Positions 2,140-57,287 of a stretch of DNA of 64,000 bases are shown here, in pieces (position 1 is the stretch's first letter; the number at the start of each line of letters is the position of its first letter). Position numbers and translations under genes: made by a program. The DNA is from Dioscorea cayenensis subsp. rotundata. Lineage: Eukaryota > Streptophyta > Magnoliopsida > Dioscoreales > Dioscoreaceae. Below the pieces are notes generated by a model, which was not told where the DNA came from, did not search any database, and worked only from the letters and a program-made list of their open reading frames with translations. The DNA is taken from positions 3,100,001 to 3,164,000 of the forward strand of contig NC_052483.1 of NCBI RefSeq assembly GCF_009730915.1, in the 5' to 3' direction.

Positions 2140-3935
2140 TGACACTTTCCAAATTGCGTGTGTGTACCGCAAGTGACTGGTGTCGAAGTAATAAAATACT
2201 CGGTGAGTTGGGTAATCAAATCCACAGGGAACAGGGTTACTAGTACTAACTGCTTCTCTGTTATCTAGCCTAATAATAAATGGGATGATGTAATGATCTA
2301 ATGTGCAAAGAAATGAATACCAAAGACGAATATGCAAGGGTAAAATAAAGGAAGATCTCAATCAATAAAGATGAGGTATAAGGGCAATGCTCCCCCTAGG
2401 ATCTAAAATGAAGCTCGAGACTTGCTAAATGCTTCTAAATCTGGTTTAATGAGTCGAGGTAATCCAAGAACAACTGGCCCTTGCCTCCAAGCCACCGGTA
2501 CTAGTCCGCTACAAGGACCCGGTGAAGAAATCGCTCAATCTCAGCACCTCACATCCTATATGACCTCAATAAGCTCTAGGGATACCTAAGAGTGAAACTG
2601 ATTCCTAAAGATAGATCTAACCCTATTTTCTAGGTGAAAAATCCCTAACCCCCTACAAGATCCCAGTGGAGAAATCTCTCAATCTCATGCCTCACACCAA
2701 ATATGGTTGCATAGAGTCTAGGGAATACGGAGATAGGAAACACTCATCAGAAGGGAAAGGGGACACTCCACTATCTCATGACTCACCCTCTCAACCCTCT
2801 TTAACTTTGGAGTTCTAACTCTAATGGAGACCTCTCTCTCATCAAAGTAACAAATCATGCATATACAATAAACTACAAGGATCAATATAGCATGCAAGCC
2901 ATGGGAACACAAGATTAAAACTCAAATCAACTCGGATTTAATAGAAAACATAAAGCAAATCAATACAAAAGATAAGATCCTAGGGTTCACAAGCCCAAAT
3001 ACCTACTAGGGTTTAGCCCTCCATGGAGAAAATTACAAAACAAAGATTAATACAAAGAATAGCAATGTAAATAATAGAGAAAAACCCCCCTTGAATTCAT
3101 GATGATGGCCTTGATGGGTCGCTCAACGTCTTGAAGAATCCTTCTTTGAAGCTAGGTTGCCGAAGGCCCCCTCGATGCTATAACTGAGTAAAGATCGATC
3201 AAAGTTGGTAAAGAATGACCCCCAATATTGCTAAAGACCTCCTCTCCAAACCCTAGCCATCTCACCCCTCAAGAGCCGCATAAAAAATGTCAAAGAATAG
3301 TGCAAGAGGGTTATTTATAAGCACAAAATGCGTCTGTCACGTGCCTCCATGCGTCTGCGTGGAATTTCCATGCACCCGCGTGAGCTGCAGGAATTTCCAC
3401 GCGGTTACGTGAATTTTCACGTGGTCATGTGAACAGTGTTTCTGCTACAGTACTGCTACATTAAAATATTCCGGTGTTTTGCTACAATACTTAACTACAG
3501 TTCTCTTCACAAATGCGGTCCAAACACTCTTACCTTGAGGCCACATGGTCGGGCACACATCCATGTGGTAGGCTATAAGACTTTTTCTTCATCGACTCAT
3601 CATTTGAAAGGTATTGCATTCTTTACAAAGAGAAGGAGCATGAAGATGTGACTACCTTTGTGCCCTTCCAACTAGCAAATTGGCTTAAATCTCCTTGGAA
3701 GTGGCGCACATCTCCACGTTCATGAACTCCTCTGATGTCTTGGTCCTTGAATTGAACAAGAACTCCCAAAATGTGTCTTTGTAGTCTATTTTTGCTTCCT
3801 TTTCTCCCTTCAAGGCATTCACAACCTAATTGCACAAAAGAGCACCAAATACACTATATGAGACAAACCATGGTAAAAATGATGCTCAATGCATGTAAAA
3901 CATATAGAAAAATATGCTTACTCAAGAACTTATCA
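2140..3935 (-). mobile_element. Solo LTR of a gypsy-type element, nested in integrase (copy 1)
   Basis: About 1.8 kb without coding capacity interrupts the gypsy integrase between LLVYGK (ending about 2138) and the next family block, KACHLPVEL (about 3936-3965). The insert starts TGACACTTTCC and ends near CTTATCA, the same termini as the complete copy at 10952-12724. It shares with that copy the block containing GTCGAAGTAATAAAA and ATCCACAGGG, the stretches on aged LTR-like sequence around 2400-2800, and the end block with TGTGCCC. On the minus strand the order fits an LTR: TGATAAG start, and a CCCTGTGGATT block near the 3' end, as in the gypsy LTR at 7568. The flanks look like a degraded 5-bp duplication (GAAAA / AAAAA). 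Open frames inside are chance. Confidence 0.75.
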
Positions 3936-9085: not shown

Positions 9086-10099
9086 TATCACACATTAAAC
9101 ATGAGAACAAGAGCTTTCGCTTCATTAGCAATCATGCCATATAACAGTACGTAAATGGATTCAAATAACATGGATTGCAATTAAGAAACAATTAAACCAA
9201 CAAGATCCACAACCAATGTCAAATAGAATAAAACCCTAGAGTTCATCTATACCAGAACATTTACAAAATTCGCACTCCATTAATGGATGACAAGTATCCA
9301 AATAACAAGGCACAAAGAGAATAAAAGAAGACATAAATACCCCTTTCTCAATATTGCTGGAATATGATTGCTAGAGAACGCCCAAGGACCTTCCACGGAC
9401 ACCGCCAAGCTAATCTTGATAGCTACAATCCTTCTTCTCCATGAGAGATGGGTTGAATCTCCCCCTAAAATTGCCTCCAAAGCCCTAGAGATTCACCCTT
9501 TTTCTTCCCTCATCTGGGCCTTCGAATAGAACCAAAGATGCCCTAGAAACCCTCATTGTTAAGTATTTATAGTGATAGAAAGTTTGTTATTACTAACAGA
9601 AAATTTTGTTGTCTTTTCCTATTTTTCTTGTAGATAATGTTGAAAGATAAAGAATATAAGATTATACAAAACTTGGATCTATAAATAGTTTCACAAACAA
9701 GAATAGATATTACCTAAAGGTTTACAAAGCATAATGATCAGGCTCACTCCACTTCTTCACTTGCTTGCAGGAACAAACCAAGTTTCTTATAGTTTCTAGG
9801 CCGATCCCAAGGCTTCCACTTATGTTGATCTCCCCCTTTTTTTTCTTTTTCTCTCTATTTCCTCTTCTAACATTAGGAGGGTTTTAACATTCCCAATTTA
9901 CAGGTCAAAACACGCCCAAGTTTGGGCTATGCTTGCGGTCGTGTTCCACTAAAAAAACTCAATTCCTCATATTTGCACGAGCATGAGCATACCCAGGCAC
10001 ATTATAAATGTAGGCCGAGTTCACCCAATTTGAAATTCATGAACAGTAATATTATACAAATAACCAGTTACCATGTACAATACTATGTTGGAAATTTGA
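9086..10099. other. No gene recognised
   Basis: About 1 kb with no convincing coding frame. The style (AAACCCTAG words, short A-rich tracts) resembles the non-coding LTR-derived repeats in the window, but I could not find its ends or a partner copy. Confidence 0.5.
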
Positions 10100-10108
10100 T
10101 CAATAGAT

Positions 10109-10481
10109 GGGTAAATTTTTTATTAGGTCACTAAACTTTGGCTCATTTTCACCTTGATTATCGAACTTCAATTTGTATCAATTTGATCACTTAATTTTAA
10201 TTTGATTTCACTGGTTAGTAAATGAAGGAATTTAGACCCTCAAAAGAATGATGAGGCTCTTTTTTGATGACATGGACATCTCCAATAGACTTAATAATGT
10301 GTTATGGGAAGGACTGGCTCAGATTTTCAGATAGTCATGTAATCAATTGAGGGTTGAAATCCTTAATTTATTGCCCGGTGAAATAAAATTAAAGTTGAAT
10401 GATCAAATTGATATAAATTAAAGTTCGGTGATCAAATTGAAAATGAGTCAGTGTTTAGTGATCTACTGAAAAATTTACCCG
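10109..10481. mobile_element. Mutator-type MITE with perfect 9-bp target duplication
   Basis: The two ends are long inverted repeats of roughly 130-150 bp: the left begins GGGTAAATTTTTTATTAGG and the right end, read inverted, begins GGGTAAATTTTTCAGTAGA. Both continue through CTCATTTTCA and AATTTGATCA blocks. The element is flanked by the identical 9-bp sequence TCAATAGAT at 10100-10108 and 10482-10490. Long TIRs plus a 9-bp duplication are diagnostic of Mutator-type elements. At about 373 bp and without an ORF it is non-autonomous. Confidence 0.9.
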
Positions 10482-10490
10482 TCAATAGAT

Positions 10491-10765
10491 CTTACCAAAG
10501 TTATATTGTAACAAAAAGGTTACCTTTAGCTCATGAGGGTCTCCGCCAACAATGGTCTAGTTAAGACATTATTGCAAAATACTTCCTCATAACTACTCTT
10601 CTAAATTCAATTTTCTAAAGTTGAGTGTGTAGAAACCTACAACTTTCACAAATATTTTATTACAAACGTGGTGATAATGTTGAGTATAAAATCCTATGTA
10701 ATTATTAAGCAGGCAGTTTCTTTGTTAAGTATTAGAGTTTTCTCATTTTATTTTTCATTGATCAT
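10491..10765. other. No gene recognised
   Basis: Short AT-rich stretch between two MITEs; nothing coding or repetitive recognised in it. Confidence 0.5.
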
Positions 10766-13156
10766 TAGGGGTGGCAATTCGTGTAAATGTGTCTAATTGT
10801 GTCATGTCAAAATAGGAATATAATACTAAAATGGTAGACACAGACACGACATGATAATTAATCCTGCTTGACTTCCTAAACACATACACGACCCATATAT
10901 GAAGCATGTAACACGATACGACCCACTTAACCAGCTTAATCTGTAATTAGGTGACAACGCCCCTTGAGTATGTCCCACAAGTGCTCGGATTTGTCGAAGT
11001 AATAAATCCCAGATGAGTGGGTATCGTATCCACAGGGGTAGGGAATAAAAGTGAATAATAGTTGTGTAACAAGATGTAAGGTAAACAAAAGTAAAAGAGA
11101 CAAGAGAGAAAAGGCACAAGTAAAGGGGAGGTAAGGCAATCGATATAAATCGGGTACCTGGATATTGTTCCGCCTAGACAATCGTTTCAAGTACAAAAAC
11201 CCTCTAATATGCTTTCTAACTAATGTATTAATGAGTCATGGAGATCCTTCAATACATGATCCCAAATCTAAGGTCAACCATGCCTAACTCTATACATGTC
11301 CCGTAGTAGAAATTGAACAATCTCTCAAACTCGCACTCGTTTAGAATCGTAATGAGTTCTATAGATTCCAAGTGATAAATCTTCTTCCTAGATGTAGACC
11401 TAACCCTTTGGTCCAGGTGAAAGGTCCCTAGTCACAATTAAGCCCTAGGTGCTAAAATCACTTCAACACTTCACTCCGTTGCCTCTACAACTAAGCCCCA
11501 GTGGAAGGTCATCCCTTAGCCTATTCACTCTACTATGACCGCAAAGAACTTGAGGAAATGGAGGTAGGATGAATCACACCGGAGGGGAAAGGGGACGCTT
11601 CGCTACCTCTCGACTCACCCTCTCAACCCTCTCCAATCTAGCTTTGTCTAACTCTCGTGGTGTGTCACTCACTTACAAGTGTTGCCAAAAAAAACTCTCA
11701 ACCCTAGTGTCACTCTAAAGGAGTATTCAAACAATCAAGCATACAAGATTGGAACTCAATTAACACATCAATTAATGAAAGTAATATAACAAGGTTTAAT
11801 GAAACAAATACATCATAGGGTTCACAAATCCAAGTACCCACTAGGGGGTTTAGCTCTCCATGGAGCTAGTTACAATCAATGAAATCAAATGTAAAAACAA
11901 GTAATCCATAGAAAACCCCCTCGGTAGTCGTGACGATGGTCTTGTGGAGAAGCCTCTACTCGTCCAAGGGTCCCTTTGTCCGGCCTAGGATACACCTCGC
12001 CGGATCAATGCCGACAAAAGCTCTCCCACTAACCTTCTTTCCAAACGAAGCACGATGTCGGAGCCATAGAACCTATCCCAATCCCTAGCCAATATCTCTC
12101 CAAACCCTAGCTGCCGCCCTCTCTCAAGTTGGGGAAAAGATGGAGAAAAGAATGTTGGAATCGGGGCTGAAATCGGGCATCCACACGACCCGTGTGGATT
12201 CTCCACACGGGCATGGATAATTTCAACATGTCCGTGTGGATTCTTTGGAATTCTCTTTTTCGGCCAGCTCCAGTATCCTGCTATAGTACCTGTCTGAAAC
12301 ACTCCCGAATCCATATTTTCATCGAGGTAACGTACACGAGCACACATTTATGTCGTACGTCACTTTACTTCTTCAATAACGGCTTCATCGGTGAAGATCT
12401 TACTATTAATGCACAAGCCGGGATACTCGAATGTAACTGCCTTTGTGCCCCTCCAAATCATTGTGCTAACTTGAACACACGGAGGTTGGCACACATTCTC
12501 GCATCTTGAGCCCGACTTATGTCTTCGCGTTTGATCCTTCTCAAGATTTCCTCCAAATGGTGCATTCACGATCTACATTGGCTTCTTTCTCTGACATTCG
12601 GTTTCACAACCCTATATGCATGAAAGTAACATAAATGCACACATATTAGCGCTAAAACCTGATAAAAGTAATGCTCATCATAAGGAAAGAACACTTCGCA
12701 TTCTTATCACACAAGCACTTATCATTAGGTCATGTAACATGACACGACCCACTCAACACTCTTATAATTGGGTCATGTAACGCAACATAACCCATTTAAC
12801 CTATTTTTACACAAAATTAATAAATCAACAATGATAGCAAACTTGAATTAAATACAAAATATATAAGTTCAAAATCCAACAAACACATAATGATACTTAA
12901 GTCCAATGTACATAAGTACTTTAATATCTAAAATCCAATCTATATTGGCTATAATTACTTTTTTTACCTTTATATTTGTGTTAATCGTGCCTTACACCGG
13001 TTGACACGAATACGACACAAAACCGTTTAATTTAAGCTTGTTTCAATCATGTCAACCAGTTTATGATACGAACCCATATATGCTAAACCCATACACGCTA
13101 TAAACTGTGTTGTGACGTGTCTTGTAATTGTGTCAGTACCCATTTTACCACCCCTA
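10766..13156. mobile_element. hAT-like MITE, interrupted by a solo LTR
   Basis: The left end reads TAGGGGTGGCAATTCGTGT and the right end, inverted, reads TAGGGGTGGTAAAATGGGT. Subterminal sequence on both sides repeats words such as ACACGACCCA and GTGTC. TAGGGGTGGCAA-type termini are typical of hAT-family elements. With the nested solo LTR (10952-12724) removed, about 620 bp remain and there is no transposase. The flanking 8-mers TTGATCAT and TTAATTGT agree at only 5 of 8 positions, so the target duplication is weak evidence. Confidence 0.65.
10952..12724 (-). mobile_element. Complete solo LTR of a gypsy-type element (copy 2)
   Basis: A 1773-bp non-coding element starts TGACAACGCCCC and ends CACTTATCA. 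It is flanked by a perfect 5-bp duplication, TTAGG, at 10947-10951 and 12725-12729. TG...CA ends, a 5-bp duplication and no internal region define a solo LTR left by unequal recombination. Read on the minus strand it starts TGATAAGTGC and has a CCCTGTGGATA block near its 3' end, as in the gypsy LTR at 7568. It shares most of its length with copy 1 (2140-3935) and copy 3 (about 29750-31525). The frames inside (for example 11985-12347 minus) are not genes. Confidence 0.88.
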
Positions 13157-14569: not shown

Positions 14570-15569
14570 NNNNNNNNNNNNNNNNNNNNNNNNNNNNNNN
14601 NNNNNNNNNNNNNNNNNNNNNNNNNNNNNNNNNNNNNNNNNNNNNNNNNNNNNNNNNNNNNNNNNNNNNNNNNNNNNNNNNNNNNNNNNNNNNNNNNNNN
14701 NNNNNNNNNNNNNNNNNNNNNNNNNNNNNNNNNNNNNNNNNNNNNNNNNNNNNNNNNNNNNNNNNNNNNNNNNNNNNNNNNNNNNNNNNNNNNNNNNNNN
14801 NNNNNNNNNNNNNNNNNNNNNNNNNNNNNNNNNNNNNNNNNNNNNNNNNNNNNNNNNNNNNNNNNNNNNNNNNNNNNNNNNNNNNNNNNNNNNNNNNNNN
14901 NNNNNNNNNNNNNNNNNNNNNNNNNNNNNNNNNNNNNNNNNNNNNNNNNNNNNNNNNNNNNNNNNNNNNNNNNNNNNNNNNNNNNNNNNNNNNNNNNNNN
15001 NNNNNNNNNNNNNNNNNNNNNNNNNNNNNNNNNNNNNNNNNNNNNNNNNNNNNNNNNNNNNNNNNNNNNNNNNNNNNNNNNNNNNNNNNNNNNNNNNNNN
15101 NNNNNNNNNNNNNNNNNNNNNNNNNNNNNNNNNNNNNNNNNNNNNNNNNNNNNNNNNNNNNNNNNNNNNNNNNNNNNNNNNNNNNNNNNNNNNNNNNNNN
15201 NNNNNNNNNNNNNNNNNNNNNNNNNNNNNNNNNNNNNNNNNNNNNNNNNNNNNNNNNNNNNNNNNNNNNNNNNNNNNNNNNNNNNNNNNNNNNNNNNNNN
15301 NNNNNNNNNNNNNNNNNNNNNNNNNNNNNNNNNNNNNNNNNNNNNNNNNNNNNNNNNNNNNNNNNNNNNNNNNNNNNNNNNNNNNNNNNNNNNNNNNNNN
15401 NNNNNNNNNNNNNNNNNNNNNNNNNNNNNNNNNNNNNNNNNNNNNNNNNNNNNNNNNNNNNNNNNNNNNNNNNNNNNNNNNNNNNNNNNNNNNNNNNNNN
15501 NNNNNNNNNNNNNNNNNNNNNNNNNNNNNNNNNNNNNNNNNNNNNNNNNNNNNNNNNNNNNNNNNNNNN
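14570..15569. other. Assembly gap, exactly 1000 N
   Basis: A run of exactly 1000 Ns from 14570 to 15569. The round number suggests a nominal scaffold gap rather than a measured distance. Every open frame spanning it is meaningless. It removes the XTH promoter and abuts the corrupted arm of the inverted repeat. Confidence 0.98.
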
Positions 15570-17930
15570 ATGGAAGAGCGTATTGTCAGGTTTAAATGAT
15601 GACACACACGCCGCCCAACCGATAAACGCATACTCCGCACATCATGGAAAATCACCAGTTAACAGACCAAACGTTTTCAAACCCCACCCCACCGCCCGTG
15701 CGTTGATCGCCGCAACATTCAACGCACGGAAAATCGTTATCTGCAGCGCACTCGACACGCCCATTGCGGCAAAATGCCAACACCTTCGCAGCACGATGGC
15801 GTGAGGTCACCTCACCATCGGGTCACAGCTGGAGCATGATGAAGCCGACGTCCGAAAGGTTATCTGCAGAAAATCACAGAACCGTTACAAACCTTGACCG
15901 TATATCAGCAACCGTGCTGTCACCCAGAAAATCATAATCGTTAAACCCTGGACTGCATTTCGCGGGAGTTTGCAGAAGATTATGCAATTGTTCGTTATCC
16001 GATTGATCTTGATGAAGTTGCCGACAAACCATAAGATGATCGCACGTTTTGCCGCGGCAACCAGGCGTCAGTCACCATCTCATTGACATATCGTTTTGCA
16101 ATCACGAACGCCTGTCGAATCTCAGGTTACCTTGGCCTAGTCAACGTCATGAAAGTTTCAAAAACACATTAACACAAAGTTTCGCCCATATAAACCGCGC
16201 AAAAATACCCCAAATGACACCAACAATGAGCAACGTAACGACACCAACAAATGGAATGCAACAAATTCATAATATTTCATGAGCAATCATTAATTGGTCA
16301 CATCTTGAAAATCAAACGTCACAGCCTGTTGGGCACTGAAATACCACCTCGCCTGTGCCACTTAACGCAGCCATCTGCCTGAAAGAAAGATTGAGCTCAG
16401 CGAGAGTTCCACTTACATCATTCTGTTTTCCACTTATAGTAAAGAAGAAAAAGGTCAGGTCATCAATATCAATTCTTTTTGAAGGTAAGACCGATCTCAT
16501 TTTCAAAACAAAGATCAACTCATTTTCTATGCCTGAGCCTCTCCGTAATGTCGCATGGAAGCCGTCTTGAAAGAACTCCTGCACGGACGAGCTCATGGCC
16601 CTCTGGGCTCACACTCACATAACACATCCATTGGCCTCATCTCATTCTCATCTCTCGTGCCTCCACAGCATTCCCACCTCATAAGTAATCCGGTCTTGCG
16701 CCATCGAGGATCTCCACCTTTTGATGCATACACAAAAATAAAAATAAAATTTCCGCTCCCCATGTTTTCATAATCACCTTATTGCATATTGACAGTCATC
16801 TGGCCTGCAATCCTTCCTTTTTCACCACAGTCCTGGCCAGCCAAGTCAATCAGCAGAGACCCTGTTAATGAGAAAGAAATCTCGAAAATGTATTCATAAT
16901 CAACACAAAAAAAGAAAAGGAGAATAAGAAAGACAGCAGTCAATAATGTGTCAAATATACTTGGCGAGTTATCAGAATGACGCACACATACTTTTCGAGC
17001 AACAGGCCCCTCAATAGAATTTCATCAAAAATTAATTTATTCTGGATCAATCAGTACTTCAACGGTCATCATAGCTTTACACGTGTTGCCTTTGAGTAAA
17101 ATGGTCAACAGTCGATAATCACAATATATATGTTATTGGCTCTACACCATTTTTACAGCATTGCCGTTGCCTTCCACACGTTATGTCCAGTCGAACATGA
17201 CAGCAGCGATTCAAGATCAATACATACTCTACGCAATGAGCAGCATCACGATGAAAATACCATTAAAAATATGAATATCGCGGATTTTTTTCGCCGTACT
17301 GCAACACAAAGATCAACGGTTTATAATTCATTTTACCGTTGCATGACCGGTATGGATAAGACAAAAGATGAAAATGAGTCAAAATCGATATTATTACGGC
17401 AAAATATATTGTGCATCACCCTTGCATCGCATCAGCCATCACAGAGCTTTGTAAAAGACTATTTTAAAAGGACAATGGGGGAAAAGACAACAAAAGAGCA
17501 AGAAATCGACTCATCAGTAGTACCAACGCACCGAGCAACGCCCACACGAACAAACCGTCATTCAAACAATCTTTATCGCCCACAGCCAGCGAAAGCCCGC
17601 CAGCCCAGCAGGCCCAACGCAAGACCACTCTAAGATCATTAGCCCAGGTCTTTGACAAACTGAAGAAAGACTTGCACCGCATCTGTGTCTCCGGCAGCCT
17701 GTAATCTCAACCAGTTCCTGTTTTACAAACTTCAACTTAACTCATCTCACATCTTCAGATTGCCGAAAGAGTTACAGCATACACCCCAGAGTAAAAGATG
17801 AACTGCGGAAGACATCAGTTATTAGAAAGAGCCAGCTCGATTGTCACAGCGCTGTCAGGCGAAAGTCCTCTGCCCGGAGCCCAGTGGCTTTGCTCGCCTG
17901 GCGGTTATCACTGCTAAATTTAAAACATAA
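15570..17930. repeat. Outer left arm of giant inverted repeat: corrupted copy
   Basis: This stretch looks unlike the rest of the window: GC-richer, with bacterial-looking words (for example GCCGCGGCAACCAG) and frames of up to 167 codons. It is nevertheless a degraded reverse-complement copy of about 20850-23735. Anchors: 15586 onward encodes GLNDDTH then NRPNV, as does the minus strand at about 23731-23630. At 15850-15966 two GAAAATCA words 58 bp apart mirror the 67-bp tandem duplication at 23281-23410. 17350-17480 (GATGAAAATGAGTC, then ACTATTTTAAAAG) mirrors 21400-21580. 17860-17940 mirrors 20830-20940. The frames here should not be annotated as genes. I infer an uncorrected or mis-corrected long-read segment. 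Confidence 0.8.
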
Positions 17931-19400
17931 AAGTAACAAAAATCAACCCAAACTAAAATTATAAAGAAAAATCGCCAACATTTGCAAAATTTACACCTTT
18001 AAGGTAAGCAAATGCACCACATACAAATAATCAATTAAATTGGATAATACTATATATTCAGAACAATCCACAGCCGCAACAAACAATACAAACTAGAAAC
18101 ACACGCAAGCAAACAATACTGAGAGCAATTTCTCAAAGTACAAAAGAGATAACAAAGAATATATTGCATGGATATAACCGGGTTAAGTATATTCAATGGT
18201 GCTCAATAGAAATATCATACTATGATAGAGAGATTCTTTATATCCTTGAAGGAATAGAAAATTTTGAAATACATTTAATATCCCATAAATTTATGATCTG
18301 ACAGAGAGTAAAATTTTAAGCCATTTTGTCCAGTTAGAAAGGTCAAACGATTAAACATCAGAAGGTTAAGAAAATTACAAAACAAAGGTATAATTTTGAA
18401 AGTAGAGTATACTCAAGGATGCAAAACATTATTTTGCAGATTCATCAAAAAGAGAATTTGCTCCAAAACAATAATGAAAGCTCAAATACAAAAATCTATT
18501 TACTAAGTGACAGAAATACTCTAAGAGCTAAGAAGTTCAAGAATTAAGAGAAAAATTTAAGACAGGAAAGGAAAAGGAAGAAGAAAGTAAGATGAGTAAA
18601 TAAATGGATATTTTACTATGGAGTAAGTATCATTTGTAGATGCAAAATTACATACTTCAATTAATATTGAAGGATAAGGTATAGTAGATGAATTATTTGC
18701 ATATTCACGAATAACTATAATAAATGTACCATCTATGGGAATTCTAGTCAAAGAATTATTTGACGTTGGTTTAATTAGTAATATTTATCCAAATAAACAA
18801 TATTGACTACAATATCTCCCATTCAAAATAAAAAAGCCATAATTAAAAGAAATATGCAGAGAAAATATCGTTATAGTATTTAGCGAGTTAGAAAGTATGG
18901 CAGCATTTCAACTCTGATATCCCGCTGACGTTACAATAGCTGAATACAGTATGACAGGATGATTTCCAAGCAAGCATTGCAACAAGTATGTAGTATGAAG
19001 AATATTATGCTTATACTAAAAAAACAAAAAATGAAAGGACAAGAAGTCTTTGTCATATATCAAAAGCTCCAGAAGCTTTTCAATGAAGGTATTGGAGAAA
19101 TGCTTACTGCAAAAGGTACATACGGAGTTTTCTTTGAAAATAAGAAAATTACGATGAGTTAGTAAGATGCAGATTATCTTGAAATATGGGCAAAATATAT
19201 ATATATATATATAGAAAAAGAAAATGTGAATGCGTCAGCCACTACTAAGTCTTTTCTAAAAGATTACTTTGAAGAAGATATGACGGATGAAAACAAACAA
19301 AAAAGAGACAAAAGATATAAGAAGGAATAAAGAAGGAAGAAGACAAAGAAGATGATAAAAAGAACTAGAAGATAAAAAGTAGAAGACAAAGAAAATAAGA
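17931..19400. repeat. Inner left arm of giant inverted repeat
   Basis: This arm is the near-identical reverse complement of about 19430-20870. For example 18400-18490 matches 20290-20385 inverted, including the long run from TACTCAAGGATGCAAAACAT to CCAAAACAATAATGAAAGCTC. The differences are mostly one- to three-base insertions and deletions (ACAAAGGTATAAT against ACATATAAT), the pattern of long-read errors. Its content is endogenous-pararetrovirus-like: a charged coiled-coil stretch, a segment reading ELFDVGLISNIYPNKQY at about 18750-18805, and SFLKDYFEED near 19250-19275. Stops interrupt all frames. The axis lies near 19400-19420. Confidence 0.85.
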
Positions 19401-19429
19401 TTAGAATTCTTTCTTCTTATCTTAGCTTT

Positions 19430-22400
19430 TTTATATCTTATTTTTTTTATCATCGTTCTTTCCTTCTTTATTCATTCTTATTCTCTTTCTCTTCCTTTCT
19501 CTTTATTCCTTCTATCTGTCTCATTTTTGCTTTGTTTTCATCCATCATATCTTCTTCAAACTAATCTTTTATAAAAGCTTTGGTGGTGGCTGAAACTTAC
19601 ATTTTTCGTTTTTCTATATATATATATATATATATTTTCATTTATCTCAAGATAATTTGCATCTTGCTAACACATCGTAATTTTTTTATCTTATCTATAT
19701 GTGCCTTTTGCCGTAAGCATTTTTCCAATGCCTTCATTGAAAAGCTTTTGGAGCTTTTGATATATGACAAAGAATCCTTGTGCTCTCATATTTTTGATTG
19801 TATAATCATCATATTCTTCACATTACATACTTGTTGCAATGTTTGCTTGAAATCCTCTCTTACTATATCCAACTATTATTAAATATTCAGTGGGATATTA
19901 AGGATAAAATTCTGCCATACTACTAACAAAATAAATATAGAACCGATATTTTCTATGGGAGATATTGTAGTACTTGATATTGTTCATCTGGATAAATATT
20001 ACTGATTAAACCAAAATCAAATAATTCTTTAACTAGAATTCCTATTGACTGTACATTTATCATAGTTATTCGCAGATATGCTAATAATTCATCTGCAATA
20101 TATTATCCTTTAATATTAATTAAAGTATGTAATGTTTGCATCCACTTATGGTATTTACTGCATAGTAAAATAATCATTTCATTGTTGATCTTACTTTCTT
20201 CTTCCTTCTCCTTTTCTGTCTTGCATTTTTCTTGTAATTCTTGAACTTCTTGCTCAAGAATTTCTATCCTTAGTAAAAGATTTTGTATTTGAGCTTTCAT
20301 TATTGTTTTGGAGCAAATTCTCTTTTTGATGAATCTGCAAAATAATGTTTTGCATCCTTGAGTATACTCTATTTCAAAATTATATGTTTTGTAATTTTAT
20401 AACCTTCTTATGTTTAATGTTGACCTTTCTAACTTTTTTTTTTGGACAAACTACTTAAAATTTTTACTATCTACTCGAATCATAAATTTATGGGATATTA
20501 AATGTATTTCAAAATTTTCTATTCCTTCAAGGATATAAAGAATCTCTCTATCATAGTATGATATTTCTATTGAGCACCATTGAATATACTTGATTTATAT
20601 CATGCAATATATTCTTTGTTATCTCTTTTGTACTTTGAGAATTGCTCTCCAATATTATTTACTTGCATATGTTTCTAAATTTTATTATTGTTTGTGCAAC
20701 TATTAGATTGTTCTGAATATATAGTATTATCCAATTTAATTGATTATTTGTATGTGAATTTGCATTTTTGCTTACCTTAAAAGGTGTAAATTTTGCAAAT
20801 GTTAATGATTTTTCTTTATAATTTTAGTTTGGAGGTTGATTTTTATTACTATTTTATGTTTTTAAATTTGCTTGAGGCAGTGCCATAGCATTTGAGTGAA
20901 ATAGAAACCACCTATTAGATCGAACTAGAGGATTTCCTTGTTCGTTGGTATATTGATAATCAAAGCTAGTGCTCTAATAAGCTTATTCTCTATTCACCAC
21001 AACCCTAGTTCGTTCTTTACTCTAGGGTGTATACTACATAACTTCTTTCAACTAATCTGAAGATAGCAAGATAGGTTAAAGTTTATTAAATAACAAAATA
21101 AAAGTTTATAAAGCAAGAACTGAAGATATAAAGATTACAAACTTACTTGGAGACTTTGAATACTTGAGTGCAAGTCTCTTTGGATTTTTATCAAAGAAAA
21201 CCTAGAGCTAATAATTCTTAGAAGTGGAAGTCTTACGTTGTTTGATACTTTCTCTCCATTTCTTGAGCTCCTATTTTCCTTCTTTATATAGGCGATAAAA
21301 GTTGTTTGAATTATTGGTTTATTTCATTATGGGTGACATTCTTCAGTGCATTTGAATTTTCTTTTGAGAAAGTAAAGTCGGTTCTTATCTTTTTTGTTGT
21401 CTTTCCCCATTATGTCACTTTTAAAATAGTTCTCACAAAAGCGTAGTGTGGTCGATACATCTCACAAGGTATTTTAATATATTTTTACCCATATGTGTGG
21501 GATAATCAGTTAGAATTTTCGACTCATTTTCATCTGTCTCATCCATACGGTCCTTTAAGCAAAGAATACGCTATGTACCTTCACTGATAATCTTTTGTAT
21601 GAAGCACAGCTTACTTTGGTGCTCTCATATTTTTAATAGTATTTTCATCGTATTCTATATATTGCATAGAAGTATATATTTGATCTTGAAATCCTTTTTT
21701 ACTATATCCTTGTTCAGCTGGATAACGTGGGTGGAATTTAGCAACAATGCTAATAAAATGGATATAAAATTAATATATATATATATATATATATATATTG
21801 TGAATTATGTTTTATTATTGTTTTTTATACTTTCTAAAGGTATACATTGTAAAATACTATATTGTTCATTGGGATAGATATTACTAATTAATCCAAAATA
21901 AATTAATTTTTTTATTAGAATTTCTATTGGGGATAAGTTTATGATTGTTACTTGGAGGATAGATTAATAATTTAACTATTCTCTTTTCTTTATATTTATA
22001 AAAGTATGTAACTTTTGCATCCATTTATGATACTTAACTCGCCAAAATTATATTTATTTTATTATTGATACTTTTATCTTTCTTATTCTCCTTTTCTTTT
22101 TTTTTTAATATTTGATTGTAAATTTTTATTTCTTTTTCAAGGATTTCTACTCTCAGTAGCAAATTCTGCAATTGATTGTGATGTCCAACTAAGCATTTAA
22201 TAACAATAGGATATGGTGAAAAAAAAGAAAAAGGATTGCAAGGTAGAATGGCTATGTCTATGCAATATGAATAAAATGATGATTATACTATTAAAACTAT
22301 GAGAGCGGAAGAATTTTATTTTATTTTATTTTTTGTGCTATACATCAAAAAATTTAGAAGATCCTCAATGAAAGCACAAGGTAGTTACTTATAGGGTAGA

Positions 22401-23039
22401 ATGTATGGAGTATTTTTTGAAGATAAAAGAATGAAGATGAGCCAATAAGATGCATATTAAGAAAGGCCATGTGAATGCATCCATTACAGGAGTTCTTTTT
22501 CAAGACTATTTTGCATGCGACATTACGGAGGAAAATGACATAGAAGATAAGAATTGATCTTTATTTTAAAAAGAAAGATCAATTCTTGCCTTCAAAAAAG
22601 AATATTTATTTTATTATTGATATTTTTATTTTTCTTTTTCTCCTTTTCCTTATAAGTGGAAAACCTAGAGCTAATGATATTTATAAGTGGAACTCTCGTA
22701 TTTTTTCTGTCTTTTCCTTCCCCTTTTGAGCTCCAATCTTTCTTCTTTCAGGCGATTAAGTTGCATTAAAAATTATTGCTTTATTTCATCATGGGTGACC
22801 TTCTTCAGTATACTTAGCACAAATATATTTGTTTAATTTTCAAAATGTATTAATTAATAATTACTCATGAAAAATATATTATAAATTTTATTTACATTCC
22901 ATTTTGTTAGTGTCATTTACAACATTTTTCATTGTTGGTGTCATTTAGAACATTTTTTACACGGACACATATATAAATCTTTCTACTAAGCTTTGTGTTA
23001 ATATATTTTTAAGCTTTCATAAGCATTGACTAAATAAAA
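19430..23039 (-). repeat. Right arm of inverted repeat; pararetrovirus-like remnant
   Basis: This is the cleaner arm of the inverted repeat; the part matching the left arm extends to about 23735, into the Harbinger element beyond. On the minus strand 20300-20103 reads a coiled-coil protein piece (LLLRIEILEQEVQELQEK, then SKYHKWMQTLHTLINIKG). It is followed with stops by a FGLISNIYP segment at about 20000. Similar segments occur at 18.75 kb and 60.8 kb, so this is a dispersed family. A related block repeats inside the arm: 21190-21345 and 22660-22815 share AAAACCTAGAGCTAAT and TTTATTTCAT, then GGGTGAC. No intact ORF. I read it as an endogenous pararetrovirus-like or related retroelement remnant; the assignment is tentative. 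Confidence 0.5.
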
Positions 23040-23280
23040 AATAACCTAAATTCAACAAATAAAACATTCATGTTACAAGCTGATATATATCAATAGTCTC
23101 AAATGACAACATATAGTTTGCCACTAACTACAACAAAAACGACACCAATCTATCTTATGTAGTTTGTCAACAACTACATCAAGATCCAATCAAAAGTTAG
23201 CTTGAAACAAAATTTACATCATCTTGCAAAATATACATCCATAGATACATCATCTTCGAGAAAGATATATATCTCCCATA

Positions 23281-23412
23281 CAATCCAAAGTTTATGGAAA
23301 TTCTATGATTTTCCTCACAAAAGATAGCCTTTGGACACTATTCTATACAATCCAAAGTTTATGGCAATTCTATGATTTTCCTCACAAAAGATAGCCTTTG
23401 GACACTATTCAA
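23281..23412. repeat. 67-bp tandem duplication
   Basis: Two units starting at 23281 and 23348, each beginning CAATCCAAAGTTTATGG and running through GATAGCCTTTGGACACTATTC, differ by about one base before the junction. The corrupted left arm retains a counterpart at about 15850-15966, so the duplication predates or accompanied the inverted copy. Confidence 0.9.
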
Positions 23413-23480
23413 CTCCCAAAAAGTAGTTCTCATACTCAAGCTTATGAGAAAACTTGATCATTAAGTCAACCTCCTAAAAT

Positions 23481-24709
23481 TCATGCCACAAGAGGGTGTG
23501 GCATTTTTGCCACAATAAATGTTATATCAAATCTTGCTGCAGATATGTAATTTTCCATGCATTGAATAAACTTGTTTGCAACATTCAACACTTTTTTGAC
23601 AATTAAATTGAGGTTTAGAAACATTTGGTCTATTAGACAAATGATTTTCCATAAGTATTGTGGAAGTATGCATTTTATCAAGTTCCAAACCAACATCAAT
23701 GGCATTATGTGTATCATCATTTAAGCCTTTCACAACATTTGTGGGTGTCTCGGCTCCTCTCCAATTAGCATGAGCTTTACCAAAAATGCCTTGCAACCTT
23801 TCAAATTCTCTGAACTCCCTAGCTATTTGCATGATTTTCCACCTTTGGATGCTTCTGCATGTCTCAAGAAAAATCTGAATCAAATTAGTCATTAAAAGAA
23901 CATATGAATATAAGCTATTACATAATACATGCACACTAAATTAAGAATAACATCAACAATGACATAGCTAAAAATATTTCAAGATAATATGACAATATAT
24001 TGACATAAAAGTGGAAAAATCAATATAAATTAGCAAATAAAATGATACACCTTCAAAAAACCATTGAACATACAATATGAATATAAATCCACAACAATCA
24101 TATATATTGGTTAAAGCATGCATGATATGGAAATAGAAAAGCATGAAATTTTCTGTACACTTGAAAGGTACAACCTACTATAGTTACATGTGGAATAAGT
24201 TTGTTAATTATTTAAACATTGAGCAAAAAATAATGTTATACCATATGCTTGATAATTGATGTGCTGAATACATAGCTTCCATTGTTAAAACTTATATTCA
24301 AATTAAATTTTAGCTTATTCAAACTTACATTAAAGAAAAAATTCAGCAAATGCAAATTTATATTCAAATAAATTTCATCTTAGTTAAACATAGTTACATG
24401 TAGATATTCAATCAAAACTTGAGGATTGTCAACTACAACGTGCTTTCGCACATCATCCCAACCAAGCTTGCTTGTGTTCATCATGTCCACTTCTTCATTT
24501 AACTTTATAGGCCATCTTTTCATTTTGTTAACCACTTGCTTGATAGTAATCCCAATGCCAAGAATGCTTATCTTCACTCTTTTTGTGGCCTCCTCATGTG
24601 TGTTGGTCTTGAATGTCCTATTCTCGCCCTTGTAGCCAACTAACACTAATTCTTCCAAAATAGATAGTGAGACATTCTCCTCATTCTCTCTGTCTAAATT
24701 TGTCTCCAT
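23481..24709 (-). pseudogene. Myb/SANT-like protein of Harbinger copy A, decayed
   Basis: This is a partner protein of PIF/Harbinger transposases, a Myb/SANT-like DNA-binding protein. A 109-aa frame at 24709-24380 contains KLNEEVDMMNTSKLGWDDVR followed by KHVVVDNPQVLIEYL, the typical end of this domain. A second frame at 23934-23527 continues with REFERLQGIFGKAHANWRG and KGLNDDTHNAIDVGLELDK. A third (23720-23481) is broken. The gap between frames may be an intron (about 23935-24379). Stops break the C-terminal part near 23400-23500, where copy B still reads through. It is not functional as a full protein. Confidence 0.7.
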
Positions 24710-24999
24710 TTTCTTGATGTACTATTCAGCTCGCCATTACTGGTCTCCTTGTTCTCCATTTCAATATAACCTAAAGAAGAAATGCATGATTATGGAAATC
24801 ACGGTAAATACTTGCATTATTTTAATAACAATGCATCTTACCATTAAAATTATGCAATGAAAAACAAAAGTGAAAAATTAAGCAAAATATTAGATACATT
24901 TAAACAAGTGTAGCTCAATAACATAAAAGAAGTTACAACAATAAAGCAAGGTCCACTACAAGGTTATCACATAACAAAAGTTACAATCAATAGTCAACT

Positions 25000-25770
25000 C
25001 ATACCATGCTAGTTACCACTCCTAGGCGTAAATTCATTCCACATGTCTTGCGCAAGGTAATCTCTCTTTTCAGTCCACTTATTACTTGCCTCAACAATCC
25101 CAACTAATGGTTCCTCTCACATAGACATCTAGTCATTCGCAAGTGGATCATATTCCTCAGGATCTACTGCTATGCTTATGCGAATGAAGTTGAGCACAGA
25201 CAACATGCCAAAATCATTCGAGTTTACATTCTTATGAGGTAAAATGAAGGACTCCTTAGTATGTCCCATCATTTCTTCAAAAGCCCGAAACAACTCTCTA
25301 TTTCATTTCTTGCCTGAGCATGCTTATAATTGAACAACTCTTCACAATTTTGAGTTGGATGTCGGTAGAGTGCCCAATCTTGACTATGGTACCGCCTACC
25401 TTTGTACGGGGCAAGGAATCCTTCCCCATTCTTGTAACCACCATCAACAAGATAATATGAACATAAGAAAGTTATAGTCAATTTGATATTAGGATTTCCA
25501 AAAAATTTCAATAATAAACAACACATAACAAAAATTAATTGTTGGCATACCAACTTGGACTTTCAAACCATTTTGCCTAATTATGGCATCATCCAATACA
25601 CTAGAATCTGAAGCTGATCCTTCCCATCATGCTAGTACATATATAAAGAGCATCTCTGGTATGAACCCCTAAGACATTTGTTGTGAGTCCACTTTTCCTT
25701 ATTCGATACCTAGGTTTATCCACTGCATTTGGTCTTATTGGCATGTGCGTACCATCTAAGGCACCATAAC
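25000..25770 (-). pseudogene. PIF/Harbinger transposase, copy A, decayed
   Basis: DDE transposase (DDE_Tnp_4 type) on the minus strand. The first catalytic Asp lies in GCYGALDGTHMPIRPNAVDK (about 25770-25710). The second lies in YYLVDGGYKNGEGFLAPYKG (within 25553-25269). The Glu block reads NEIESCFGLLKK at about 25300-25269, just before the stop. Frame breaks separate the first and second blocks near 25600, and the C-terminus is shifted. The triad residues themselves are still present, so inactivation is by frameshifts, not active-site change. Confidence 0.8.
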
Positions 25771-26284
25771 ACCCTTAAAAGAGCATTAGAAAATTGTAAT
25801 TTCATTAAATTACATGTAATTAAAAAACACAAATTCATATTTGTTGGTGCTCAAATAAAGTATACCTTGAACCACTTCCACTTGTTTCATTGCTATTGTT
25901 TGGAATTGGTTGTGGTTTAACAAATAATTTACCTTGCAACCATATAACATCAACTAACACCATATAACAATATAAACTAATAGTTTGACTCGATCTAGAG
26001 ATCTTATTTGGATACTCCTATTCTTTGTGTGATGGGCTAATACATTAAAAAAACCAACAATAAATTGTTTCTCAATTGTGACTCTACTAATTTGCACTAA
26101 CCCTCCCCATACCCTAAGGATCTCACAAAGATGTGCAAATGTATTTGTATGCATTTTTAATTCCCATAAACATTTATTGTCACCTGAATTAATAAGGAAA
26201 TCTATTACATCTCTTCATGACTCATATCTTGCTAACGCTCTCTCATTTATAGCCTGTCTCTCATTGTCCCTCCTCAATATAAAA

Positions 26285-26285
26285 G

Positions 26286-26320
<35 letters not shown>
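26285..26320. repeat. (AAAT)n microsatellite
   Basis: Nine or so tandem AAAT/AATA units inside Harbinger copy A. A (CAA)n run at about 26541-26567 lies nearby. Confidence 0.95.
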
Positions 26321-26900: not shown

Positions 26901-27639
26901 AAATAAATAAACCATAAATAATAATTATTTTTTTACATTAAATGCATCTCATGCATGCTCCTGCACTTAATTAGTCAGCATATTCACCCTAATTTGATTT
27001 TTCAAGTCAATAGGCCCATTACATCTCGTATGTAATTCTATATGTGCATCATCTTTACATTTAAAAGATATTGATTATTTACCACTCTCGTCATTGCAGA
27101 TTGTTAAGTTATATGTAGTTAGTTTGCTATTTTAACTACCAAGACATCTACAACTTTTTCCTTAATCCAACAAATAATCATCTTATTTTATTAGGAAACT
27201 AATTATCTTGATATTTTTAACTAACAATTAACAAGGTACAACATGTTTATTATAGTAAGAGATAAGAATTTTGTGATCATATTAACATAATAATTATTTT
27301 TTACTTAACAAATAAACCTAGAAGATTTTCATAGAAGAAGATTGACAAGACTCAAGAAAATAGAAGGGGTAATGTTTTGGTTGACATGTAGTTTTTGGTC
27401 AATTGTTGTTGAAGTGGGGCAAATTGACTTTTTTTTTATGCTATTCCATAACTTAAAACTTTTACCATGGTTTTGGTGGGACAGACTTTTTCCAACTTGT
27501 ACTCAAACACGTTGTTGTGCTGTACCCTAAGCACATTTGCCAATTAAACAAGGGACAAAAGAGTTTGTGTTGTCTTGTCTCGTCATTTTTCGAATATCAA
27601 TTGAACTTTGATATAATAAAATTTAGACTATCTTATTTT
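26901..27639. other. No gene recognised
   Basis: AT-rich stretch between Harbinger copy A and the pararetrovirus-like remnant. A short frame at 27342-27530 has no recognisable domain. Confidence 0.5.
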
Positions 27640-28233
27640 CTTTCAATTAGGTAAAAGAAGTTTTATAGTGTCCACCCTACAGTAAAGAATAAACTAGGTT
27701 TGTAGTGAAGAGAGATTGAACTTATTAGAGCAAGGAAAATCCATTAGTTCCATCTAACAGGTGGTTTCTATTTTGCTGCAAAAAATATGGCACTTACGCA
27801 AAAAAAAATAATTAAAAACATAATGTATTAATAAAAATCAACTCTCATACAAATGTTAGGAAGAAACATTATTAACATTTGTGAGATTTAAACCCTTTGT
27901 GGCAAGTGATCGTGTGCCTCTATACAAATAATCAATTAAATTGAATAATAGAGAAAGATATAAGAAAACAATAAAACTAATCTAATAGATAGACAAACAA
28001 TAATAGAATTAAAATAAATAATCTACAAATTAATAATCTAATAGAAACTCTAGAGATTGCCAAAAATCAAAATTTTCAAAATTTAATAAAAACACTTCAA
28101 AATATAACTTGGAAGAAACTATGATATCAGATTAATGAAGAATTATTAAAATAATAACTAGAATAAGATTTGCCTATGAAAGTATAAATATTCTTTATAT
28201 GAGGATAAAATAACAAGAAAATATAAAAAAAGG
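27640..28233 (+). repeat. Pararetrovirus-like remnant, 5' piece
   Basis: Homologous to the inner arms of the inverted repeat, in the same orientation as the left arm. It contains CACCCTACAGTAAAGAATAA, CAGGTGGTTTCTATTTTGCT and TACAAATAATCAATTAAATT, which match inverted 21030-20720. It is non-coding here. The remnant is cut by the Mutator element at 28234 and appears to resume at 32913. Confidence 0.6.
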
Positions 28234-28599: not shown

Positions 28600-31500
28600 G
28601 CACTAATCCCCAAATGTGCTTTGGTCATCAAGTAATAGTGATTGTGTGAGTAGGGTTATCAAATCCATAGGGACTGAAGATTACTAGTATTAACTCTATC
28701 CTCATTATCTAACTAGAATTCAAGCTGTAGAGAAGTGAATTGATAAACTAAGATTCAAAATCACTAAGTACTAAGATCAAGATTTCAAAGAAGTAATAAA
28801 CCAATTAAATGAAATAGGTGTTCGAAAGGATTTTACTTGGGATTATTAAAATGAAGTAATTGCAATTAACATAGATTGAATCTAAGTGTTGTTAAATTGA
28901 GGGGATTCAAAAATATATCGAGTGCTCTCTCGAGATGCCTCAATACCTAATCCTATACTATGGTAAAATTAAGTATCTTTAAATTCAACTTTCATACAAT
29001 TGTAATGAGATCTAAGAAACCCCTATTTAGAGATCATAACTCTTGCTGCAACCATTCTAATCAGAAGAATCGAAGCAGCGCATCTCTAGTGTACGCTAAT
29101 GATTCCTTTCATCTATGTATTATCTTAACATAGTGAATCTCTCGATTTCAATCATGCAATCACAATGAATAAACCACTCTTGTTATGCTAATTCAACAAG
29201 ATAAGAATATAAAAGAACCTAACAATCCAAATGAAATCTATATTAAAAACAATATGAAAGTGAGATTATCCCAAGCTACATCAAATTTCGAACACCCAAA
29301 AGATTAGCCTTCCATTAGGGTAATGACTTTTTTGGTCTCCCTCTTCTTCTTTATCCTCACTCCAAAATTCTAGCCATCGTCTAGCCAGAAGCTTCCAAAA
29401 GCCAACCTCCTATTTACTCTTTTCAGCTTTCCTTTTATATACTAACAAATCAGGTAAGTAGATGGGCATGTACTTTGCCCATGTACTTCTCTGGATCAAA
29501 GATTTTGCTCAGCTTTGAATCTACATGGGCGTGTACACAACCGTGTAAAACATCTCGTGGCCATGTAGTTTTTTTCTAGAAAGCTTGCTGCTCTGTCTTG
29601 GTGGTTACACGGCATGTACACGGGCATTTACTTTGGCCTTCTATTTTTTCTAGTATTTTCTTATGCTCGTGCTGGGGAGTACACATCCATGTACATGAGT
29701 GAGTACATGGCCCGTGTATTCTTACTGTAATTTCTACACTACCAATACTTGGGAGGTACATAGGTTTGTCGAAGTAATAATACCCTGGTGAGTGGGTAGT
29801 CGAATCCACAGGGAATAGTGATTAGAAACACAAAGATTGCTATTTAACTAAGGTGAAGATGAATTAATAGGTGTGTCAACAAAATCAAAATGAAAGGAAC
29901 TAAAGAAAATAAGAAAGAGAGGTGTAATAAAATGAGAGGAAATGGTAATCGATAGAAAGTGGGGCACTCGGACATTGCTCTCTCTAGGACTATTGTTTCA
30001 AGTGCAAGGCCAATCATTATACTTCCTGACTGATGTCTAATAAATCCTGGAGATCCTTAAACACACGGTCCCAAAACTTAAGGTCAACCGTGACTAACCC
30101 TACACTATGCCCCGGTGGAGAAATCTCTCAGTCTCGACACCTCATACTGTGCTAGGTTCCTTTAGGCTCTAGGGATGCCAAGTGATAAACCATACTCCCT
30201 AATGTAGATCTAACCCTTTGGTCTAGGCGAAAGGCCCTCTAATCACAATTAAGCCCCAGATACTAAGGATTACTTCAAAGCTTCACTCTGTTGCTCGCAC
30301 AACTAAGCCCCAGCAGAGTTTGTCTCTTAGAACTTCACTCTATTGTGACCACAAAGAACTCTTGGAATGTGGAGGTAGGATAAATCACATCGGAGGGGGA
30401 AAGAGGATGATCCGCTACCTCTCGACTCACCCTCTTAACCCTCTCCAATCTAGCATTGTCTAACCCTCATAGTGTGTCACTCATCCACAAGGATTACCAA
30501 GATGGATTCTCAACCCTAGTGTCACTCTAAGGAAAAATCAACACAATAAAAATTCAAGATTGGAACTCAATTAAAAACATCAATTAAGAAAAGCATAATA
30601 AAAGGTCAAAGAAACAATATCATCCTAGGGTTTACAAGTCCAAGAACCCACTAAGGGTTTAGCTCTCCATGGAGAAAAATACAATCAACAATGAAGTCAA
30701 AAGTAAAGAGATGTAATCCATGAATAAAACCCCCTTGGTATTCATGTTGATGGTTTTGTGGAGTGGTTGTGTCTTCGTCAAGGGTTCCCTCGCCAAGCCT
30801 AGGGCACACCTCGCCGAATCGATGCCGACGAAAGCTCCCCCAATAACTATCTTCTGATAGAACGCAGTGTCAAAGGCCGTAGAACCACTCTAAAAACCTT
30901 TCCAAAGCCTCCAAAGTTGGGGAAAAGATGGAGAAATTATGGAAAAAGGATTCTGCAAATATCAGGCTGAATTGCGGCTTTATATAGGGCTGGAATCGGG
31001 AATCCACACGGGCATGTGGAATTTCCACACACCCGTGTGAATCTACGGAACTTGGTTTTTCAGCGGCCTGTGAACAATAATTGCTACAGTACTCCGCCAA
31101 AAACACTCCCGAATCCACACTTTTCATCGAGGCAACATAACGGGCACATGTCTAAGCCGTAGATCACGTCACTTCTTCAATAAGGGATAACATTAACGAA
31201 GATCTTACTAGTATTGCACAAGTCGGAATACGCAAATGTGACTACCTTTGTGCCCCTCCAAACCATGTAATTGCTTGACTGCATGGAGGTTGGCACACAT
31301 TCACGTATCTTCGAGCACAATTTGTGTCTTCACATTTGTTCACTCCAAGATTCCATCAACAAAGTGCAATTGCAATCTACTTTGGCTTCCTTCCTCTATA
31401 TTTGGCTCCACAACCCTACATGCACACAAGTTACACAAATACACATATATTAGCGCTAAAATATGATAAAAGTAATGCTAATCGTAAGAAAAGAATACTT

Positions 31501-31700
31501 CATATTACTAATACACAAGCACTTCCATGGGTGTGTACTTTGCCCGTGTATTTCTCTGAATGTTGTTCCTGGCTCCATTTCACTCCCAATTTCATGCTTT
31601 TGGTTTGAGTTATATTTATGTTGGTCTGAAAGTATAAATGGAACAAAATAAGTACCAAATCACTCTTAAAAATATTCTTGAGGATACCTTTAAGTGCACA
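28600..31700 (-). mobile_element. LTR-like sequence, related family, hosting solo LTR copy 3
   Basis: The left part (28600-29749) contains the block CATCAAGTAATAGTG, then TTATCAAATCCATAGGGACT, which is the reverse complement of the end block of the gypsy LTR at 7568. The right part (31526-31700) resumes with GTGTACTTTGCCCGTGTATT, the same wording as 29465-29500 on the left. I read this as a second LTR family in minus orientation, split by copy 3. Its precise ends and target duplication were not found. Confidence 0.5.
29750..31525 (-). mobile_element. Solo LTR of gypsy-type element (copy 3)
   Basis: Near-collinear with the complete solo LTR at 10952-12724. Shared words in order include TTTGTCGAAGTAATAAT, GAATCCACAGGGAA, TCCTGGAGATCCTTAAACAC, CTAACCCTTTGGTC, CTCTCCATGGAG, GTGCCCCTCCAAA, ATATTAGCGCTAAAA and ACACAAGCACTT. 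The first 30 bases have diverged and the end reads CACTTCCA instead of CACTTATCA, so its boundaries are approximate. No coding capacity. Confidence 0.78.
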
Positions 31701-42540: not shown

Positions 42541-42714
42541 TATATATATATATATAACAACTCTATTACATGAATTTTTGTAGCTATTCACAAATGGTGG
42601 TTAAATCAAGAATGAACCAAATTCAACAAATAGAATACGTAACAAAATAATAATAAAATATAATCACAACATATATAGTTTGTCAACAACTATAAAAAAT
42701 ACCATAAAGAGTCA

Positions 42715-43337
42715 TCATGAAACAGAAACTTTGAGTAGCCACATCAACTTAAAGACATACATCCATAGATACAAAAACATCAACTTCACAAAGCTGTAAA
42801 CCTCTAATACTATGTAAAGATTATGGTAATCCATCCTACAATTTTTCACAAAACTTATCCTTTGGACACCATTCAGCTCCCAAAAATATTTCTCATACTC
42901 AGGCCTATGAGAGAACTTGATCATTAAATCAACCTCCTCATCCTCGCTCAAACCAAGCTTCTTTACCTCTTCACCTAAGTTTCTTGCCATAGGAGGATCT
43001 GGCATTTTTTTTTAAACTTGTTTGCAACATCCAACACTTTTTCATGTTTTAGTAGAGTCTGGAAACATTAGGTACATCAGACACATGATTCTTTGTAGGT
43101 GCCGCCAAAGTATGCTCCTCATCAAGCTCTAAATCAGTCTCAATGACATTATTTGTGTCATCATTCAACCCTTCCACAACATCTACAGATGTCTCAGTTC
43201 CTTGCCCATTAGCACTATATTTACCAAAAATACCTTGCAATATTTTGAATTCTTTAAACTCCTTATTTGCATGATTTCCCACCTTTGGATGTTTCTACAT
43301 GTTCAAAAAAATTGTGAATTATATTACTAGTTGATAA

Positions 43338-43371
<34 letters not shown>

Positions 43372-57282: not shown

Positions 57283-57287
57283 TGCTT

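Follow-up and report, generated by a model that had tools for sequence, protein, structure and literature searches.

A corrupted mirror copy at a contig start of the Dioscorea cayenensis subsp. rotundata assembly: probably a fold-back nanopore read mis-called on its second pass

Introduction

Inverted duplicates that pass through nanopores give rise to errors and missed bases after the junction of their two arms, as reported by Spealman, Burrell and Gresham in 2020 (PMC7229812), who also described a raised current and a faster passage after the junction and explained them by re-annealing. Fold-back artefacts in general most likely arise during library preparation according to Heinz, Meyerson and Li (Breakinator, PMC12870357), and fewer than half of their fold-back reads have any searchable sequence between the two halves. 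Here a giant inverted repeat is described in 64,000 nucleotides of Dioscorea cayenensis subsp. rotundata (GCF_009730915.1, NC_052483.1), a whole stretch hereafter called the window, which corresponds to C13:3100001-3164000 of a 584-Mb, 2249-contig assembly. The outer part of its left arm lies at a contig start and looks bacterial. With fairly high probability, this outer left arm stems from a fold-back nanopore read that ends the contig and was mis-called on its second pass, with a real palindrome at the axis; the feature is real in the assembly and most likely not in the genome.

The quality of nanopore reads also depends on how the base-callers were trained. Default callers are reported to be trained on mixtures from many kingdoms, with the species unknown, and callers trained on plants perform better (PMC9749173). 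A benchmark found poorer performance of models on non-bacterial sets that had not been part of training, which is due in part to these sets being harder, and states that training data may shape error biases and profiles (PMC10088207).

A garbled copy of the right arm

The two arms, from 15570 to about 19400 and from about 19446 to about 23760, stand in inverted order around a spacer of about 45 bases, so that both arms and the junction of an inverted duplicate are present at the locus. The mirror match extends to the first bases of the contig at 15570, beside the run of N at 14570-15569. An earlier note on this DNA, made from the letters alone, had proposed the mirror symmetry about 19.4 kb, which is borne out. 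In a global alignment, 15570-17915 and the reverse complement of 20870-23735 reach a score of 734; the corresponding values are 98.8 +- 11.8 (maximum 134) for 100 dinucleotide shuffles and 69 and 110 for control orientations in which the sequence was merely reversed or taken on the same strand. Each of four outer sub-blocks stands above 300 shuffles (z 16.3, 22.4, 20.1 and 22.0), and the copy is collinear up to the contig end (z 57). The suggested plot of identity by position gives 0.51-0.66 of alignment columns across twelve 200-base bins starting at 15570 and 0.63-0.90 across seven bins starting at 17970, with 0.62 in the partial last bin at the axis. The sequence pairs named in the earlier note are present in the alignment and the reading frames, both copies of the 67-bp duplication included, and the outer left arm does follow the right arm throughout at 44% GC, compared with 29% in its counterpart.

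The differences between the outer arms have a direction. With the right arm as reference, T is replaced by C at 185 of 706 aligned T and A by C or G at 113 of 837 aligned A, while the reverse changes are few (C to T at 25 of 351, G to A at 17 of 347). The left arm has also lost 645 bases in 206 deletions and gained 105 in 73 insertions, which leaves it both inaccurate and short, with 2346 bases compared with 2886 on the right.

Third copies of the sequence tell which arm is wrong. At informative sites of the outer arm, the second copy of a repeat at 42.5-43.3 kb agrees with the right arm at 120, with the left at 24 and with neither at 32, and the copy at 27.6 kb at 67, 13 and 10, respectively. 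For the inner arm, three copies give 41/16/13, 21/4/8 and 18/2/5 in the same order. The left arm is thus the wrong one; an old divergence of two real arms cannot give these counts, and they likewise rule out an equal evolution of both arms. Moreover, the 67-bp tandem duplication of the right arm is tracked twice by the corrupted left arm. Since this duplication is recent (1.5% diverged) and was copied twice, the split of the arms is not old.

The genome holds no other source for the outer left arm among the matches found. When the 584 Mb were searched with it, very common words being skipped and both first-look candidates being scored, the matches were the arm itself and four right-arm pieces on the opposite strand, so the opposite strand of the same locus is the sole source matched. 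A search with 20870-22810, in which 40 of 104 candidates were scored, gave just short matches beyond this locus. A 68% relative of 20654-21091 lies at 27611-28037, and 22811-23760 is part of a dispersed, probably Harbinger-like repeat. The segment 17916-18175 aligns as a copy with milder errors; because the palindrome arm called A below shows no clear homology past about 18150, this segment is also read as part of the fold-back copy.

The probably Harbinger-like transposon is present in the window as two copies (23156-26293 and 42672-45524), pieces of which are about 70-77% alike, with a DDE_Tnp_4 fragment above the cut-off and a Myb/SANT-like fragment below it. One end of the first copy is taken in by the fold-back copy.

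Nanopore origin and other contig ends

The ligation adapter, as printed in PMC9965538, PMC7490894 and PMC12886913, ends in the 17-mer TTCAGTTACGTATTGCT. This 17-mer has 28 exact occurrences in the assembly, and its reversed control has 0; the assembly is therefore built from Oxford Nanopore data. At 15 of the 20 places that were cut out, a 1000-N gap is no more than 101 bases away from the adapter, and the contig at C21:2147145 opens with the adapter after one base. The other 5 of the 20 places have no gap within 1.5 kb and are possible chimeric joins. Untrimmed adapter places include C787:1-17, C1005:1-17, C2:12564241 and C5:3816034.

Contig ends were compared by aligning the first 1.8 kb with the next 7.2 kb at 17 of the 28 adapter places and at C21. 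The window contig stands out with z 49, followed by L049 with 27 (a spaced inverted repeat), C21 with 13 and L040 with 3.1, and all the rest are at most 1.4. In a measure of E. coli against plant words over the first five 500-base bins, the window contig has the highest mean, about 0.015 (one bin negative), followed by L041 at about -0.001 and L051 at about -0.008.

Two of these ends have peculiarities of their own. In L049 (C12:14688720-14698701), the end bases 18-545 are repeated in inverted orientation 6.4-6.9 kb inward at 76.6%. L051 (C18:4123380-4133368) is a 10-kb piece beside an adapter and a gap, in which the end 5 kb have 34-50% GC and few long frames, and its word use is nearer to E. 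coli than that of most other contig ends.

A natural-looking palindrome at the axis

The inner arms were first described as nearly identical, which is too strong: BLAST identity is 80.8% over 17916-20869, and the likeness is patchy, with a 37-base block on the left. Their lengths are 1485 (left) and 1439 (right), so that no shortening of the second arm is seen in the inner arm alone. A search of the genome with 17900-19400 found the right arm (81%), C21:2148436-2149587 (89%) and C13:8092939-8094078 (87%), and each of the latter two has a second, inverted arm at 74%. Similar arms and nearly the same spacer thus recur elsewhere in the genome, as expected of a natural palindrome, both times at gap edges, and all three palindromes adjoin a 1000-N gap. 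The spacer is nearly identical between the window locus and C21. The 37-base block (18823-18859) is also present in arm A of C21 and of the C13 locus at 8.09 Mb, and paralogues near 21.8 and 60.8 kb carry a related block. Given these A-type relatives, the notion of the whole left arm as a pure copy of the right arm, with which the earlier note had explained its inner part too, was dropped.

The arms of the two relatives can be called A and B. Between C21 and the C13 locus at 8.09 Mb, the A arms are 98.4% alike and the B arms 99.7%, and with such likeness the two palindrome ends probably derive from a shared read. In a comparison of window-left, window-right, C21-A and C21-B, sites split two against two join window-left with A and window-right with B in 48 cases, left with right and A with B in 10, and left with B and right with A in 2. 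Single departures number 125 for C21-B, 40 for C21-A, 37 for window-right and 36 for window-left, in addition to 41 complex sites. These counts make it probable that there are two types of arm, with the inner left arm mostly of type A.

The surroundings of the two relatives (C21:2142001-2155000 and C13:8087001-8101000) are near-duplicate contig ends, with end arms 99.7% alike. They look like duplicated haplotype contigs, and one read was probably used twice.

The inner left arm is a patchwork. In it, runs of 190, 116, 81 and 79 bases match arm A of C21 exactly, as runs of 113 and 91 bases match the right arm; the run of 190 lies at 18528 (shared with arm A at both relatives) and that of 113 at 18185. 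The right arm and C21-A share no run longer than 28 bases, and simulations of uniform divergence give longest runs of about 30-33 and at most 69 in 1000 trials. Between the exact runs, ragged patches carry several T-to-C changes of their own. The simplest account of the alternation is that a bad read was polished in patches, with reads from two places; gene conversion is another possible source.

Palindromes at two other gap edges and the switching between A and right-arm patches point to a probable real palindrome at the axis, which probably favoured both the fold-back and the contig break. None of the three palindrome places found runs on into a second natural flank. Because what is missing from each of the three contigs is present in the others, the window contig and the two relatives may be the two sides of one palindrome. 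On C21 or at the C13 locus at 8.09 Mb, the flank of arm A may be the true left neighbour of the window contig, with a possible mis-join.

The bacterial look of the outer left arm

The claim that the outer left arm favours bacterial words was examined through how much an order-3 word model gains over one of order 1, relative to 500 permutations in which the real indels were kept and the substitution outcomes were shuffled within trinucleotide contexts. Two 50-kb pieces of E. coli K-12 give z 6.5 and 5.6, reached by 0 of 500 permutations each. Next come a Photobacterium plasmid (z 4.7, 0/500), Synechocystis (2.6, 4/500), L. salivarius (2.5, 0/500), P. putida (1.8, 19/500) and R. etli (0.7, 118/500), and two plant sets give -2.7 and -0.7 (499/500 and 388/500). 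The outer left arm thus leans to enterobacterial words beyond its composition and error spectrum, most strongly for E. coli and not confined to it, in what is one case of 2.3 kb.

The lean exceeds two nulls, which upholds the claim. The E. coli value was reached in 0 of 300 trials under a context-free null and in 0 of 300 and 0 of 500 permutations under the trinucleotide-context null, and GC or the error spectrum alone was rejected as the cause of the bacterial look. Under the context-free null, the simulated GC is 42.3% compared with the actual 44.1%, and the raw likelihood, which tracks GC, is raised for R. etli too (z 6.5). The observed/expected ratio of CpG is 0.98 in the outer left arm and 0.38 in the right arm; the null gives 1.08, which is not exceeded. 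No Pfam family scores above its cut-off in three frames taken from the arms.

A trained caller or polisher may have supplied the enterobacterial words, which is plausible at somewhat less than an even chance. In the specific form of this proposal, held just as tentatively, a base-caller starved of signal by a re-annealing hairpin would write the enterobacterial words that it has learned and turn plant DNA into pseudo-bacterial sequence. The papers found on base-calling 'hallucination' hold no account of this effect in their titles and abstract openings. If the proposal is true, such stretches could pass as contamination or gene transfer and would reveal the trained prior of the caller. Reading-frame callers and screens for contamination or gene transfer could mistake 15570-17915 for bacterial genes, for example in the 167-aa frame 17130-17633. 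The case also offers a cheap test for bad contig ends, namely a mirror copy together with one-way T-to-C changes and lost bases.

Proposed origin and its rivals

The proposed course of events begins with an imperfect palindrome at the axis, composed of arm A, spacer and arm B, with about 1.2 kb per arm. In one molecule, a strand would come from the right flank, cross B and the spacer and end within or at the edge of A, and this end would fold back on B and be extended as a copy of the right flank, whether by a polymerase in library preparation or earlier, in the cell. The printed order predicted from this model is copy of flank, A, spacer, B and flank, as seen, with a junction at about 18.17-18.8 kb. 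The nanopore would read the intact flank and B first, the garbled part being the second half; past the axis, the emerging strand would re-anneal to the part already through the pore, run too fast and be mis-called: bases would drop out, and A would be read as G on the sequenced strand, which appears as T-to-C in print. When short of signal, the base-caller, rather than a polisher, would tilt to enterobacterial words. The assembler would let the fold-back read end the contig, and polishing would mend just patches of the inner arm, from two sources. The earlier note, which had proposed a fold-back or missed-adapter read at a contig end, is thus supported in part: a fold-back with a mis-called second pass agrees with the data, and a missed adapter finds no support.

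Several observations weigh against this origin. The evidence comes from the assembled sequence alone, no adapter is found at the start of the window contig, and at 17 further contig ends with an adapter, out of 28 adapter places, there is no such garbled fold-back. Since these 17 ends lack it and the end arm of C21 is not GC-shifted, garbling is not general, and garbled fold-back as a general trait of adapter-bearing ends was rejected. In the inner arm, the patches of A and right-arm type alternate, while one break would switch once. Where window-left and C21-A agree against window-right, C21-B sides with window-right at 48 sites and with A at 37, so that type B is blurred; the A-siding sites are put down to patching or errors in C21-B. 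The inner left arm also has no excess of deletions (51 bases lost, 97 gained), and damage there thus depends on the supposed polishing. Both other palindromes are at contig ends, so that the palindrome is not demonstrated in well-covered sequence. The training of Guppy models on many kingdoms that is reported in PMC9749173 does not predict a purely enterobacterial prior, and the subset of raw signals checked in the Breakinator study (PMC12870357) showed no noise around breakpoints.

The strongest rival, in itself unlikely, is a real, long and nearly identical inverted duplication that arose by fold-back in the cell, with only the base calls of the left arm being bad owing to the failure of nanopores on such DNA. 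The same nanopore failure is reported on real inverted duplications (PMC7229812), and a palindrome able to seed the event is present. However, reads coming from the left should then give a good left arm, and the arm instead stops at the contig end. The genome search found no other copy, and the two gap edges with arm A have an unrelated flank beyond. This flank, tested on C21, is unrelated to the outer left arm (z -1.1) and the outer right arm (z -2.2), which also means that the outer left copy is not the natural neighbour of A.

Less likely again is a missed adapter between duplex strands, be it a missed adapter of PacBio or nanopore strands read in succession. It would yield a fold-back read, and the data are from nanopores. 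On the other hand, no adapter is found at the axis, where scores are no better than those of shuffled adapters, the spacer is nearly that of C21, and the arm beside the axis is of A type and not a copy of B.

An old natural inverted repeat with a left arm that evolved to high GC is very improbable. The inner arms do differ by about 19% and have natural-looking relatives, but the shared 67-bp duplication is young, the third copies favour the right arm, the composition changes abruptly and the T-to-C change is one-way.

Bacterial contamination or transferred bacterial DNA has next to no probability and was rejected, for all the 44% GC and the enterobacterial word bias, because BLAST at E 0.01 against 20,395 E. 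coli, 50,697 phage and 72,556 plasmid records gave no match, and the arm is collinear with plant sequence.

Features and surroundings of the locus

The genes and repeats of the window are of a plant-like nuclear kind, with Sec23/Sec24 at 61837-63477, a Myb/SANT-like domain at 57231-57695, RNase H of a reverse transcriptase at 795-1250 and a DDE_Tnp_4 transposase fragment at 25269-25562. A short imperfect palindrome with arms 72% alike lies at 10076-10510, and a dispersed repeat is present as direct copies of about 74% at 11052-12720 and 29860-31524, with pieces at 2181-3113. The features of the inverted repeat are collected in Table 1.

Table 1. Coordinates of the inverted repeat and the contig start in the window
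Feature	Position	Strand	Remark
1000-N scaffold gap	14570..15569	.	contig studied starts at 15570
Outer left arm	15570..17915	.	corrupted reverse-complement copy of 20870-~23760
Milder-error copy of ~20610-20869	17916..18175	.	boundary uncertain
Inner left arm, mostly A type (probable)	18176..19400	.	patchwork of exact runs with ragged patches between
37-base block	18823..18859	.	in inner left arm, not in right arm
Spacer/axis	19401..19445	.	nearly same spacer at C21 and at C13, 8.09 Mb
Inner right arm, B type (probable)	19446..20640	.	outer boundary approximate
Source of the fold-back copy	20641..23760	.	includes end of dispersed repeat
67-bp tandem duplication	23278..23410	.	copies 23278-23343 and 23345-23410, 98.5% alike

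Comparison with known systems

Artefacts of these kinds are already known, and the points of interest are that the words lean to enterobacteria and that the locus is tied to a natural-looking palindrome. As in the inverted duplicates of Spealman and colleagues (PMC7229812), the second arm is inaccurate and shorter, and the length of their second arm follows that of the first. Unlike in their reports, the garbled arm has here been kept in an assembly, where it is known from sequence alone, and its words tend towards the enterobacterial. The excerpts of the species-bias papers at hand (PMC9749173, PMC10088207) report error rates and do not describe words resembling the training data in failed signal. 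In the fold-backs of the Breakinator study (PMC12870357) as here, both halves map to one place, the second on the opposite strand; unlike those fold-backs, this locus has a palindrome at its axis and a badly called copy.

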